A DNA stretch of 35,186 nt from Boothiomyces macroporosus (lineage: Eukaryota; Chytridiomycota; Chytridiomycetes; Rhizophydiales; Terramycetaceae): assembly GCA_027604185.1 (NCBI GenBank), contig JADGKB010000125.1, forward strand, positions 1 through 35,186. The letters are read 5' to 3'. Positions within the stretch are counted from its first letter, which is position 1, and each line of letters starts with the position of its first letter. A model generated the notes under the pieces. The model had not been told where the DNA came from and searched no databases. It saw nothing but the letters and a program-made list of their open reading frames with translations. The position numbers and the translations under genes were made by a program. Below are positions 3,680-35,025 of the stretch, in pieces.

Positions 3680-4621
3680 TTATTTTCTAGGGGCGATTAA
3701 AGTGGAATGTAAAATATTTCCATTCAAATCAACGAAATCGACATTCAAGCTTGATCTGGTTACATCTACTGCAACAAACCCATACGAAGAAGCACCCCAC
3801 TGCTCACTTGAACCTTGAATATCATTAGTACAGAGCCCTTCCACTTGGCCCCCAGCACCACTTTGGATAAACAATGTGTTTTGGTACTTTGCCGATTTAA
3901 GTGTATGTTTATGACCATACATGTAGGAAGATACTTTGTATTGATCAAACAAAGACAAGAGACTGCCCATATAAACACCTGTTCCATCACAAGTCACCAA
4001 GTGATGATGTCCAAGAACGATAATGTATTCGTAGCTTTGCATTTGCTGCAATTGAGATGAAATCCAATCAAGTTGCTTTTGATGAGTTTGGTTTTCAATT
4101 GTCCATCCTTTAGTTTTAAAATCTTGGGCTAGCTCGCCATTGTATCCCTAGAGTTAGTTTGTTTTACATAAAACAATAGGTCAGTGTCGATAAAGACGAA
4201 ACCCACTGTGAACCCTTGTAGTTTTACTGTTTTTGTGTAAAAGTAATCCGGTAGAGTCCACCTTGGATGTATTTGACTGTATTGAATTTCAGCTTCTTCG
4301 TTACCATACCAATCTGAGTCAAGTCTACTTACCGTGGTTGCCCAAGATACAGTACCAAGGTAATTGCCCAGTTAGGCCAGTGAAAGAGTCTAACCAGACA
4401 TTTTGCCATTTGGGATCAGTAACTGAAGTTACTCCAGAGTTGTAGAAATTGTCACCAAGTGCGATAACAAATTGCGCGTTTCTTTGGGTACCGTACCGAT
4501 CCATTTGCTTACCGACTGCTTTTAATTCATTAATGTGGTAATCTGCACCCCAATCACCGAGAGCCATGAATGACAGTTTGGTTTGAGCAAAGACAAGACC
4601 TAACAGTAAAATGCTATTCAT
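3680..4621 (-). CDS. Secreted purple (tartrate-resistant type) acid phosphatase
   Basis: Three exons: 4621-4333, 4313-4168 and 4147-3680, encoding 300 residues, similar to mammalian ACP5. Residues 1-13 form a short hydrophobic signal peptide. All dinuclear-metal motifs are present: GDWG (Asp23), GDNFY (Asp57, Tyr60), GNHD (Asn95, His96), GHHH (191-194) and GHKH (223-226). The GNHD motif is created only by splicing. Exon 1 ends in the first base of Asp97, and the intron GTAAGTAGACTTGACTCAG (19 nt, 4332-4314) must be removed to continue WYGNEEAEIQYS, which aligns with the family. The second intron (4167-4148) is 20 nt and ends CTAACTCTAG. The enzyme hydrolyses phosphomonoesters in the secretory pathway or outside the cell. 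A TATA box lies about 28 nt upstream. Confidence 0.93.
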
Positions 4622-5095
4622 TGAAAATATTTTTTGCCTTCATTCTATTTATACACTGGAATAGGCAAGCAGTTGAACGTGCATCAGTTTCTCGTCTTTT
4701 TCACTCGACCACGTTTTCCAATTGTGTTTGTTTAATTCATCTGATTTAATGGATTGTAGAAAACTTCATTTTCAATTGGAGATTGAATTATCAGTTGTTT
4801 CAATCACTACCTGTTACCATTTTATATGCATGAAGTTGTTGTATAATAAACAAACGTTTCATTAGCTGCCGCAATAATTAGGCTAAAATGTCCAGAACAG
4901 TCACTATCATTTGACTAAAGAAACGCAACAGATGGCTAAGAAGGTATTTGCTAAATAGAGAGTACTATTCTCTTATCTCATAAGTTTCATCAACCTTCTA
5001 GATTCAATAAACTTGTGGTTTCGTGTATTGGTCTAGTAATGTTTGAGTGTCAAAAAGACTCTAGGCCGACATTGGTTGATTGAAAGCTCTTTAAA
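4622..5095. other. Intergenic stretch with no gene seen
   Basis: This is the region between the acid phosphatase start and the tandem repeat behind the YIP1 gene. Apart from the TATA-like element near its left end I see no ORF with coding character, no tRNA-like cloverleaf and no clear repeat. It is AT-rich on both strands. Confidence 0.5.
4645..4653 (-). promoter_or_regulatory. TATA box of the acid phosphatase gene
   Basis: On the minus strand this reads TATAAATAG, ending about 24 nt before the ATG at 4621. Confidence 0.45.
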
Positions 5096-5203
5096 AAACA
5101 GATGGATTCAAATCACCATGACAAACAGATGAATTCAAATCACCATGACAAACAGATGGATTCAAATCACCATGACAAACAGATGGATTCAAATCATTAT
5201 GAC
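5096..5203. repeat. Four tandem copies of a 27-bp unit
   Basis: Four head-to-tail copies occupy 5096-5122, 5123-5149, 5150-5176 and 5177-5203. The shared core is ACAGATGGATTCAAATCA. Copy 2 has one change (GATGAATT) and copy 4 has CATTATG instead of CACCATG. The array begins 15 nt beyond the stop codon of the YIP1 gene, so it should lie in its 3' UTR or just past it. The unit is a multiple of three and open on the minus strand, but no start links it to a gene. Confidence 0.9.
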
Positions 5204-5217
5204 AAAGAAGATTATAT

Positions 5218-5958
5218 TTAAAATACGGTAACCATGGCAAAGGCAGAATACAGCAACCCGACAGGATAAGCAACCAGTAACCGTTGCTCTTTCATATCAA
5301 GCACAGATACAAACATTCCACTAGCTGAAAATGCACACCAAGCAACACTCAGCCCAGATATTACTAATCCAAATGTTCCACTAAGAGAAACAAGAATAGA
5401 CACACCAGATAGAATAACTATAGGTAAAAGCGAGTATCCCAGCACACTAGCCACTTTTTCCAACTCAACTCCTTTTTCACTCATGAGGTTCAAGATACAA
5501 TACATTGCTTTATGAAATCATTATTACCTATACATCCCATTGTAGCTATACCATAAATATATCCAAAATGAGCTTTTCCAGACAGCAATAGACATCCAGC
5601 TAATAGAAAACAGAATATAATAGGTCCCTACATTAAAATAGCTTACTGCTAGGTCGGTATCATCCATGATATTACTTTCAATACCTTTAATAGGGTTGAG
5701 TACAGTGAATCCTTTCGACAGGATATGTGAAAAGTTAATTCCAAGCTCTTCAAGTAAAGGCGGTTCGTTATTAAACCCACCGGTAGAAAATGCTCTTTTT
5801 ATAGATTCCCAACTAACCTGGGTAGGGACATCTTGTTGGTAATCGTACTGATAGTTGTAATCTTGCTGTTGGTATTCCTGCTGTTGGTAGCCGTATTGCT
5901 GGTAATCGAATTGCTGAAAGGACATTTCGTCCTGTTGGGGAACGTAGCCATAAGACAT
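5218..5958 (-). CDS. YIP1: YIPF5/Yip1-type Golgi Rab-binding membrane protein
   Basis: Three exons: 5958-5647, 5627-5528 and 5507-5218, encoding 233 residues. The first 45 residues are Gln/Tyr-rich ([16 protein letters not shown]). Then comes the YIP1 hallmark [15 protein letters not shown], followed by five hydrophobic helices ending [20 protein letters not shown], the normal C-terminus. Intron 1 (GTAAGCTATTTTAATGTAG, 19 nt, 5646-5628) and intron 2 (GTAATAATGATTTCATAAAG, 20 nt, 5527-5508) both interrupt transmembrane segments. Splicing restores [15 protein letters not shown] and [11 protein letters not shown], which match the YIPF5 family. The protein acts in ER-to-Golgi vesicle formation with Rab/Ypt GTPases and YIF1. 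Placement in the YIPF5 branch, as opposed to YIPF4, YIPF6 or YIPF7, is by recognition, not by a tree. Confidence 0.92.
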
Positions 5959-33295: not shown

Positions 33296-33418
33296 ATAAA
33301 CACCTCATCAGTCTATCATGATATTTCTAACGGGACAATTTATTGATACAAGTACCTAAAAACATTAGTATAAGCAATCTACAGTGATTAACAGAATTGG
33401 ATGGAGATATTATTATGA

Positions 33419-33619
33419 ATGTTACGAGAGAGTCTCTTCTACGGAATGACACAACAAAGTGGAGTGAGCTGCCTTGGCAATAACCCAAATCAAGCAGAGA
33501 ATACATCTGGATCAATTATTACTTATACACAGCAATTATTCCAGCATCCATACTTAAATGGCGCTTATTCAATAATGATAGCCATCCTAATGATTCACCA
33601 CTCCCCTATGAGTGACTAA
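33419..33619 (+). CDS. Possible small protein (66 aa)
   Basis: An ATG-initiated frame of 66 codons in the 392-bp gap between the serine hydrolase and the LIM gene. It contains QSGVSCLGNNPNQAENTSGS and a hydrophobic C-terminal part (YLNGAYSIMIAILMIHHSPM). No family match, no intron signal and no TATA box at the right spacing. It could be a real small membrane peptide or chance. The remainder of the gap (33296-33418, 33620-33687) shows nothing. Confidence 0.25.
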   Translation: MLRESLFYGMTQQSGVSCLGNNPNQAENTSGSIITYTQQLFQHPYLNGAYSIMIAILMIHHSPMSD

Positions 33620-33687
33620 AAACAACTCCGACTTTGCGGACGCGATTTACGTAACTGCTTAAACTTTCGATAAAAAACAAACTTCAA

Positions 33688-35025
33688 ATGTCCTTTTCTG
33701 ATGACCAACAACCGACTACCATTACGAGGGAGGACTATCTATGCAAGGGATGCAAACATTCTATTTCACAACCAATATTCTATAACGGCGAGATATGGCA
33801 CAACTCTTGCTTCAACATCCACAGTGTTTGGAAAACAAGCTACTCTGTCGCAATATTATTTTTCGACATTCATGTAGAAGATATGGATTTAGAGCATCAC
33901 CTGGAAAGAGTTTGGGAAACATTTAATGATATGGATGCATGCTTACAAACAAATTGCAGTATTCTAATGAAGGAACTAAAGAGAAACAACAAGCCGATGG
34001 AATCCGCTTTTATAATGGACTCCTGCGCGGTATTATTGGAGCAACTCCAAGCCATTTTGTGGGTATTCGAAAACCTCCAGAGTAGATATAAAGATAAAAT
34101 TAATAGACAAGGTAAATTTATTTAATGTAGTTTATAAAAGCACATTGGATGATTTAAAAAATATCGTTATCACTGTGAAAGAGTATCTGGATTTCTGTAC
34201 CAGGGAAATAAAACTTGGAATGAATTCAGCTGCAATATTGGCATTGTCTATACGCGAATCCAGGTTTGCGGTATCTAATTGTTTGCGATACTTGGTACTA
34301 GCATCCTTGGCAATGGTAATATGTCCTGATACTAGGATAAACCATATCTCGACTTTATTCTGAAAAAAATATTGGAAAAGTCTTACAATTTGGCATTACT
34401 ACCGGTATGTAATGAAACATACGGCAGTCTTTATGAGCGAGATACATTCGCACTCTGTAATATTCGTTACCGACACCTGTTAATGACAGATACAGTAAAA
34501 ACCAGTAGTTTGCATCGGAACGGTAAAACGAAAGGCTTCCTCTATGTAAATTACGAAGGACTGTCGAGCATACCGGAATCTAACATTTCACCAGAGGAAT
34601 ACGATACCAAGATAAAAGACGCGGTACCAGATTCTTGTACAACTGAGCCTGTTCACAAACATAGAAGGATACCAACAGTTTTTAGACACGATATTCATAA
34701 ACCTAAAGTTGAGAAGCAATCAAAGAAGGAATCTATAAATAAGCGTATTTCGGTGTTGGTTGATAACAGACGGAATAGCTGTTGCTCGGATACAGGGTCT
34801 AGGAGAGATTCAGCAAGTATCAGGGTTCAGTTTGATGACGAGATAACTAGTCATGGAGGGAAAAGTAGCTATAGACCAATAGCAGCTAAAATATCTGATC
34901 AAAATGAGAGCGATTCAGATTCGGTATTCTCAATCAAAAACAAGGCCCCAATCTTGTTTTCTAAAACTAAAAAAATACTAGCTATTTTCAAGAGAATACT
35001 ACAATCAGGGCTTAAAGTAAACTAA
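33688..35025 (+). CDS. Half-LIM zinc-finger protein with helical core and Ser/Arg-rich tail
   Basis: Three exons: 33688-34111, 34131-34315 and 34336-35025, encoding 432 residues. Introns are 19 nt (GTAAATTTATTTAATGTAG) and 20 nt (GTAATATGTCCTGATACTAG). Near residues 19-40, LCKGCKHSISQPIFYNGEIW is followed by HNSCF, giving the CxxC...HxxC first zinc module of a LIM domain with the typical WHxxCF. The second module (CxxC...CxxD/H) is absent. Residues about 60-215 are helical (LEHHLERVWETFNDMDACL). The C-terminal half is basic, polar and probably disordered, with KKESINKRISVLVDNRRNS and GSRRDSASIRV resembling kinase sites. This could be a cytoskeletal or polarity adaptor of fungal type; function is inferred weakly. 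Its stop is 31 nt from the convergent HSP90 stop. Confidence 0.8.

Follow-up and report, generated by a model that had tools for sequence, protein, structure and literature searches.

The question raised by this stretch of DNA, contig C125 of a Boothiomyces assembly (15.2 Mb in 216 contigs), is whether spliceosomal introns of about 20 nucleotides (nt) can be the normal size in a fungal genome. The whole stretch of 35,186 bases is called the window below. The original prediction had read its genes as interrupted by introns of 17-21 nt and had proposed that this size is the rule in the genome, which is borne out: in a sample of the genome, 165 of the 203 introns called by a gene finder fall at 18-22 nt, and these predicted tiny introns are confirmed as the usual size class of the sampled genome. 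It is very likely that they are ordinary U2-type spliceosomal introns, which appear to have shrunk to near the smallest size that the Boothiomyces spliceosome can manage.

The host was identified from proteins encoded in the assembly. After removal of 8694-8712 and 9698-9717 from the ATIC gene, 588 of 589 residues are identical to the NCBI protein P0001 (whose printed name starts with 'Boot'), the next named relatives being Globomyces pollinis-pini (82%) and Kappamyces (77%). The spliced PI4K matches a record of Boothiomyces sp. JEL0866 at 92% and Isy1 a record of Boothiomyces sp. JEL0838 at 96%, the host being closer to JEL0838 than to JEL0866 in the few proteins compared. Following these matches of ATIC, PI4K and Isy1, the host is a chytrid fungus of Boothiomyces (a genus in the Rhizophydiales, Chytridiomycota) and not a nucleomorph, in line with the fungus-like opisthokont that had been guessed. 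Tiny introns must have been permitted when the public Boothiomyces gene sets were made, because the ATIC and Isy1 models contain some.

Intron lengths in the genome sample

In a first scan of 235 kb, joins that restore the reading frame were counted without any motif and compared with seven control dinucleotide pairs (a higher coding threshold yielded almost nothing). GT-AG joins were found 30, 31 and 12 times at 19, 20 and 21 nt, against control means of 9.3, 7.3 and 1.7, and 3 times at 18 nt, versus 2.0 in the controls. A small GT-AG excess at 30 nt (7 versus 2.4) is unexplained. A second scan of the same 235 kb, in which the motif was scored without a coding requirement, gave 25, 35, 15 and 8 segments at 19, 20, 21 and 22 nt, compared with 1.7 ± 1.2 per length over 25-120 nt, and 3 at 18 nt. 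The same peak appears at lower thresholds; at a motif threshold of 5.5 no site of any length was found. Segments of 14 nt were also in excess at the lower thresholds (59 versus 28 at 1.5 and 24 versus 10 at 2.5, with 58 of the 59 distinct in sequence). This class was taken as a scoring artefact, which arises because the score at 14 nt can take the donor GTAA(T) itself for the branch motif. No intron of 14 nt is called by the gene finder, for which coding frames are required.

The gene finder was applied to 33 sequences (275,917 bases), i.e. the window, 20 contig starts and 12 splicing-factor loci, with about 3 kb present twice. Intron length was left free from 12 to 150 nt, and TG-GA, GA-TG and AG-GT ends served as controls. 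The 165 tiny GT-AG introns are distributed as 1, 53, 74, 24 and 13 at 18, 19, 20, 21 and 22 nt. When the branch motif is taken out of the score, 117 of 173 introns lie at these lengths (0, 37, 54, 17 and 9), and the controls with TG-GA, GA-TG and AG-GT ends give 3, 0 and 5 there.

It could be that the tiny introns are nevertheless a minority and that most introns, being of ordinary fungal length, were missed. The gene finder does list 38 GT-AG introns in the range 23-150 nt (55 when the branch motif is not scored), and one intron of 46 nt, in Isy1, is matched by the public JEL0838 gene model. However, the controls produce 93, 98 and 89 pseudo-introns at 23-150 nt and almost none at 18-22 nt, no length from 23 to 120 nt rises above the motif background by 4 standard deviations in the second scan, and the curated models contradict two long introns that were called in the window, one of 68 nt at 19802 and one of 142 nt in a FAD-binding gene. 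Because the controls exceed GT-AG at 23-150 nt, no class of longer introns is seen above background, though single ones are likely, and it is quite improbable that the tiny introns are the minority.

The predicted coding sequence (67,425 codons) contains about 0.8 tiny introns per kb (165 in total), which is probably a low estimate. According to one survey, the mean of two other chytrids is 3.93 introns per kb, and the Cryptococcus mean of 63 bp is called relatively short (PMC8476143), whereas the mode in Boothiomyces is 20 nt.

Anatomy of the tiny introns

Among the 165 sampled tiny introns 163 are distinct, and in 114 of these the best branch pentamer is yTAAy. The branch A lies at intron nucleotide 14, 15 or 16 in 88, 49 and 14 of the 163 (together 151) and never at 13, and the distance that remains to the intron end is 5 nt for 76 introns and 6 nt for another 65 (141 of 163). 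The gene finder allowed 4 to 10 nt for this distance and any length from 12 nt, and with such wide limits the floor at 14 nt was not imposed. Lengths of 19-22 nt are therefore mostly sums of two steps, i.e. branch A at 14-16 plus a tail of 5-6: 19 nt is 14 + 5 in 47 of 53 introns, 20 nt is 14 + 6 or 15 + 5 in 64 of 73, 21 nt is 15 + 6 in 17 of 23 and 22 nt is 16 + 6 in 11 of 13. The original range of 17-21 nt is thereby corrected to 19-22 nt, with a mode of 20 nt in the sample and 19 nt in the window; a length of 18 nt was found in one of the 163 distinct introns of the sample and was not confirmed for any intron of the window.

Donors read GTAA in 105 of the 163 and acceptors TAG in 117; at position 6, T is the most frequent letter in introns of 19 and 20 nt. 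The A+T content of the introns is 71%. The stretch from branch point to acceptor is too short for a polypyrimidine tract. The GT-AG ends, and a branch motif whose spacing from the 3' end varies little, are those of U2-type introns, which in other fungi also carry a yTAAy-like branch motif.

The geometry suggests how such introns might be handled. The donor hexamer would pair with U1 and later with the ACAGAGA box of U6, and the branch heptamer with GUAGUA of U2, in which case six donor nucleotides and about seven at the branch A would together cover 13 of the 15 nucleotides with which a 19-nt intron begins. The 14-nt floor could then be the space that the 5' splice site hexamer and the branch heptamer take up almost end to end, about 2 nt apart, below which the U6-donor and U2-branch duplexes would overlap. 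Since there is no space for a polypyrimidine tract, it is proposed that the intron is recognised as a single compact element of 20 nt. As U1 and U2 would hardly fit on such introns in the way they do on long ones, early release of U1 or recognition across the exon is expected, i.e. U1 would probably be gone, or bridging across the exon, before U2 fully docks. Splicing would yield a lariat whose loop spans about 14 nt and whose tail has 5-6 nt.

Introns rebuilt in the window

Against the 43 introns first counted in the window (25, 14, 2, 1 and 1 at 19, 20, 21, 18 and 17 nt), 39 introns are confirmed in 15 gene models, all of them of 19-21 nt (24 of 19, 13 of 20 and 2 of 21 nt) and none of 17 or 18 nt; one probable 46-nt intron in SURF6 comes in addition. 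Each of the 15 models has an uninterrupted frame between ATG and stop once its GT-AG introns are removed, and a permissive gene finder supplied 33 of the 39.

Four tandem paralogs of 287-301 amino acids at 10244-15006, which probably encode a multi-pass membrane protein, are 53-59% identical and have introns at three common alignment columns and phases (102/0, 157/0 and 257/1, here positions A, B and C). Introns of 19-21 nt, with sequences alike in little but the signals, occupy 11 of the 12 places; the twelfth, position B of paralog 3 (13035-13953), is empty, its exons continuing without a break.

10550..10569, plus strand: 20-nt intron, paralog 1, position A; column and phase common to 4/4 paralogs
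10735..10753, plus strand: 19-nt intron, paralog 1, position B; common to 3/4 paralogs, paralog 3 being empty
11055..11074, plus strand: 20-nt intron with GTG donor, paralog 1, position C; common to 4/4 paralogs
11727..11745, plus strand: 19-nt intron, paralog 2, position A; paralog alignment
11911..11929, plus strand: 19-nt intron, paralog 2, position B; paralog alignment
12231..12250, plus strand: 20-nt intron, paralog 2, position C; paralog alignment
13341..13359, plus strand: 19-nt intron, paralog 3, position A; paralog alignment
13826..13846, plus strand: 21-nt intron, paralog 3, position C; paralog alignment
14391..14409, plus strand: 19-nt intron, paralog 4, position A; paralog alignment
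14575..14593, plus strand: 19-nt intron, paralog 4, position B; paralog alignment
14895..14914, plus strand: 20-nt intron, paralog 4, position C; paralog alignment

These paralogs bear on the possibility that the frame is broken by insertions that arose in sequencing or assembly. Most lengths (19, 20 and 22) are indeed not multiples of three, as for frame-breaking errors, but errors would not carry GT..yTAAy..AG, nor would they share alignment column and phase across diverged paralogs, and an in-frame 21-nt class would not be expected, where 12 joins were seen versus 1.7. With common positions, diverged intron sequences and an empty site, the paralogs fit splicing, unlike sequencing error, and an origin by insertion is hardly conceivable.

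The second internal control is the STT4-like PI4K (18269-23396), which after splicing matches kinase, PIK and N-terminal Pfam domains and was aligned with six relatives. Six of its seven joins, including that of the in-frame 21-nt intron, lie within well-aligned stretches, the first being in a weakly conserved one.

18752..18771, plus strand: 20-nt intron; join in the weakly conserved stretch
19204..19224, plus strand: 21-nt (3n) intron; join flanked by aligned residues in six relatives
19710..19728, plus strand: 19-nt intron; alignment, with gaps right before the join in P0121 and P0127
19850..19869, plus strand: 20-nt intron with GTT donor; hand-placed, alignment, with a gap right before the join in P0121
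22363..22382, plus strand: 20-nt intron; alignment
22999..23017, plus strand: 19-nt intron; alignment, IAP being joined to GGGILEVSPFKLT
23148..23167, plus strand: 20-nt intron; alignment

The public JEL0866 PI4K model (P0121) is without WFYLVLLILLPNGQWPKEW and without a second 16-residue stretch, both beside tiny introns, whereas the first is kept in four of the five other relatives and the second in all five. With this retention in most or all of these relatives, the reading with tiny introns is better than the public model at these places, and the gaps are likely annotation damage. The P0121 model also has a shorter N-terminus.

As to the remaining genes, seven of eight spliced proteins searched against Pfam match a fitting family; no match was obtained for the membrane paralog tested, nor for the first exon of gene 26899. 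Six of the seven matched proteins have at least one join inside a domain. The exception is the FAD-binding gene, whose join falls between two domains, brings the matches to FAD_binding_4 (60.9 bits) and to BBE (41.6 bits) into a single frame and creates WAIRGGGGNFGIV, a typical motif. The rebuilt motifs that had been put forward at the outset all hold, i.e. GNHD of the acid phosphatase (4314), RIHC-TRL of ATIC (9698), the Spc25 joins (6714 and 6826, the second within the Spindle_Spc25 match and the first at its start) and those of the PI4K kinase region (22999 and 23148). The open frame and the motif constitute the evidence for two introns of the second Yip1 gene and for those of genes 26899 and 33688.

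4148..4167, minus strand: 20-nt intron, purple acid phosphatase-like gene; open model, join within the Pfam Metallophos match (53.6 bits)
4314..4332, minus strand: 19-nt intron, same gene; open model, join within the Metallophos match, GNHD restored
5508..5527, minus strand: 20-nt intron, Yip1-domain gene; open model, join within the Yip1 match (42.7 bits)
5628..5646, minus strand: 19-nt intron, same gene; open model, join within the Yip1 match
6714..6732, plus strand: 19-nt intron, Spc25; open model, the Spindle_Spc25 match (77.1 bits, residues 148-211) starts at the join
6826..6844, plus strand: 19-nt intron, Spc25; open model, join within the match
7281..7299, plus strand: 19-nt intron, TRM61-like tRNA methyltransferase; open model, join shortly ahead of the Pfam match
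7661..7679, plus strand: 19-nt intron, TRM61-like; join within the GCD14 match (302.6 bits)
7854..7872, plus strand: 19-nt intron, TRM61-like; join within the GCD14 match
8694..8712, plus strand: 19-nt intron, ATIC; spliced protein 588/589 identical to P0001
9698..9717, plus strand: 20-nt intron, ATIC; RIHCTRL restored, same identity to P0001
15253..15271, plus strand: 19-nt intron, SURF6/Rrp14; open model, join within the RRP14 match (62.0 bits)
15524..15569, plus strand: probable 46-nt intron with uncertain boundaries, SURF6/Rrp14; free-length gene finder, join within the SURF6 match (101.3 bits)
15696..15714, plus strand: 19-nt intron, SURF6/Rrp14; open model, join within the SURF6 match
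17251..17269, minus strand: 19-nt intron, FAD-binding berberine-bridge-like oxidoreductase; hand-placed, removal yields WAIRGGGGNFGIV
23701..23719, minus strand: 19-nt intron, second Yip1-domain gene; open model, join within the Yip1 match (40.0 bits)
24132..24150, minus strand: 19-nt intron, second Yip1-domain gene; open frame and motif, beyond the Pfam match
24279..24297, minus strand: 19-nt intron, second Yip1-domain gene; open frame and motif, beyond the Pfam match
27227..27246, plus strand: 20-nt intron, large gene 26899-30930; open frame and motif
29456..29474, plus strand: 19-nt intron, large gene 26899-30930; open frame and motif
34112..34130, plus strand: 19-nt intron, gene 33688-35025; open frame and motif
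34316..34335, plus strand: 20-nt intron, gene 33688-35025; open frame and motif, a stricter run having picked 65 nt

Several candidates were set aside. The strict gene finder, which overlooked genes with short exons, proposed a 28-nt intron at 17300, 68 nt at 19802 and 65 nt at 34271, in place of which 19 nt at 17251 and 20 nt at 19850 were curated and 20 nt at 34316 is favoured. The permissive run merged Spc25 with TRM61, and its introns at 6934, 7033, 7139, 17300, 19829, 23369, 24740, 25557, 27127 and 34457 were discarded before the count. The 17-nt candidate at 25557-25573 (minus strand) was rejected for its GTC donor and poor branch motif; the sole GT-AG solution of the gene finder to this frame break is 17 nt long, which is below the floor of the intron geometry, and the break may be an assembly indel.

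Strong intron-like motifs at 7154-7172 and 18234-18251, just 5' of the TRM61 and PI4K start codons, are possible introns of the 5' untranslated region and were not counted. The 46-nt introns of SURF6 and Isy1 both end at the 3' side like the tiny ones and possibly represent a rare longer class. By eye, short tandem repeats with a period of about 27-35 bases are present at 5100-5210 and 12410-12490.

The spliceosome and other systems with tiny introns

Of the spliceosome parts to which the original prediction had pointed, the genes of U2AF65, SF1 and PRP8 as well as U2 and U6 were found in the genome; genes for Isy1 and Cwc25 are also present, and a U1 candidate lies just below the cut-off. U2, U4 and U6 score above the Rfam gathering score, with two U2 genes carrying GTAGTA, one U6 gene carrying ACAGAGA and one U4 match (by score alone), and the recognition boxes of U1, U2 and U6 are canonical. 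The splicing genes themselves contain such introns: 20 and 19 nt in the part of PRP8 covered, 19, 20, 19 and 19 nt in U2AF65, 24 and 22 nt in SF1, 21 nt in Cwc25, and 22, 20, 19, 46 and 20 nt in Isy1. Removal of the four introns of 19-20 nt from U2AF65 raises its score from 230.7 to 342.7 bits, the family cut-off being 310.3. Around Cwc25, stretches of 3,111 bases are identical on contigs C49 and C100 (L039 and L040), through recent duplication or assembly redundancy. Two RNA-binding-protein matches of equal score, C20:74242 and C20:119309, lie 45 kb apart and may likewise be a recent duplication.

Removal of the segments from DNA, as in the eliminated DNA of ciliates, or their skipping during translation (ribosome bypassing) would also restore the frames, and such elements can in general be short and frame-breaking. 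The segments, however, have splice-site ends and a branch motif at a fixed distance, the genome has U1, U2, U4 and U6 candidates along with core splicing proteins, and the host is a fungus, which leaves elimination or bypassing extremely improbable.

Splicing as ordinary U2-type introns is thus strongly favoured, and the following points count against this reading or narrow it. The support for splicing comes entirely from DNA sequence, and the gene finder covered 1.8% of the assembly, for the most part at the starts of contigs. Manual placement was used for six of the 39 introns in the window (10550, 10735, 11055, 14391, 17251 and 19850). In a few cases introns of about 46 nt seem to be real (Isy1, L037:1970-2015; SURF6, 15524-15569), which makes tiny introns the rule but not an absolute one, and in 12 of the 163 tiny introns the best pentamer lies outside positions 14-16. 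The U1 candidate with ATACTTACCTG is slightly below the Rfam gathering score (68.8 versus 69.5 bits). Searches for U5 and U12 gave no match, which is uninformative, as the control genomes gave none either. Finally, the spacing argument for the floor is drawn from base-pairing lengths.

The original prediction had named chlorarachniophyte nucleomorphs and heterotrich ciliates as lineages with introns this small. Both belong on the list, heterotrichs being described with 15-16 nt (PMC9505925) and the nucleomorphs with 18-21 nt, but the list was incomplete, since mikrocytids are described with 16-17 nt (PMC10245619). The nucleomorph range is almost equal to that of Boothiomyces, but a nucleomorph is a relict endosymbiont nucleus, whereas the introns reported here lie in a 15.2 Mb fungal genome. 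Mikrocytids share the narrow, uniform size at the short extreme; they are given as intracellular parasites with 224 introns per genome and 17-19 spliceosomal proteins (PMC10245619), as opposed to 165 tiny introns in 1.8% of the assembly, and retained U2AF65 and SF1, in Boothiomyces. Lengths of 19-22 nt together with PRP8, U2AF65, SF1, Isy1 and Cwc25 (five proteins) do not correspond to the mikrocytid type of 16-17 nt with a strongly reduced spliceosome. Among the matches listed in a search of open-access PMC, no report of uniformly tiny introns in a fungus was found.

Another near counterpart is Stentor coeruleus, according to its description a free-living cell with a standard code, uniform tiny GT-AG introns, canonical U1, U2 and U6 boxes and 5 nt from branch A to intron end (PMC9505925). 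It differs in having 15-16 nt, the A at 10-11 and a weak consensus (PMC9505925), compared with 19-22 nt, 14-16 and a strong yTAAy in Boothiomyces. For Stentor it has been proposed that a Cwc25 without its Gly-rich plug, together with an unusual Isy1 N-terminus, avoids a clash with the 10-nt lariat (PMC9505925). The Boothiomyces Cwc25 (with an ATG chosen by hand, the gene finder having begun further upstream) starts with MGGGDLNLKKSWHP and, from residue 1 onward, can be aligned with the CWC25 chains in solved spliceosome structures. Its plug is intact, and the Cwc25 part of the Stentor proposal is therefore not transferable. Isy1 starts with MARN in 67 of 120 proteins among the matches listed, whereas that of Boothiomyces starts with MAPKTLAQ (in our own and the public JEL0838 model), followed by a weak echo of the helix after the N-terminus, and that of Globomyces sp. 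with MANNQKEKQ. The first Isy1 splice is ambiguous (L037:1434-1600), with 22 nt here versus a longer piece in the public model. An unusual Isy1 N-terminus in Boothiomyces, as read from the gene model, is suggestive only.

A more speculative proposal, which we consider possible but rather doubtful, is that the fixed geometry (A at 14-16, tail of 5-6) results from end-to-end duplexes with the small nuclear RNAs, and that tiny-intron lineages convergently freed the N-terminus of Isy1, which elsewhere reaches the intron backbone at the branching site, the Cwc25 plug being kept here and lost in Stentor. If true, i.e. with packed duplexes and a freed Isy1, an otherwise conventional spliceosome would need one small change to accommodate a 14-nt lariat.

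As predicted here, the Boothiomyces introns appear to be close to the smallest known in nature. They place uniformly tiny introns in a fungus, kin of those organisms whose splicing is known best, and since recognisable U2AF65, SF1 and PRP8 are retained alongside them, the question of the minimum intron becomes testable, including the contacts behind the 14-nt floor, the sharing of 20 nt by U1 and U2, and what substitutes for the polypyrimidine tract. In addition, chytrid gene sets may be damaged wherever tools presume a longer minimum intron, as the PI4K of JEL0866 illustrates.

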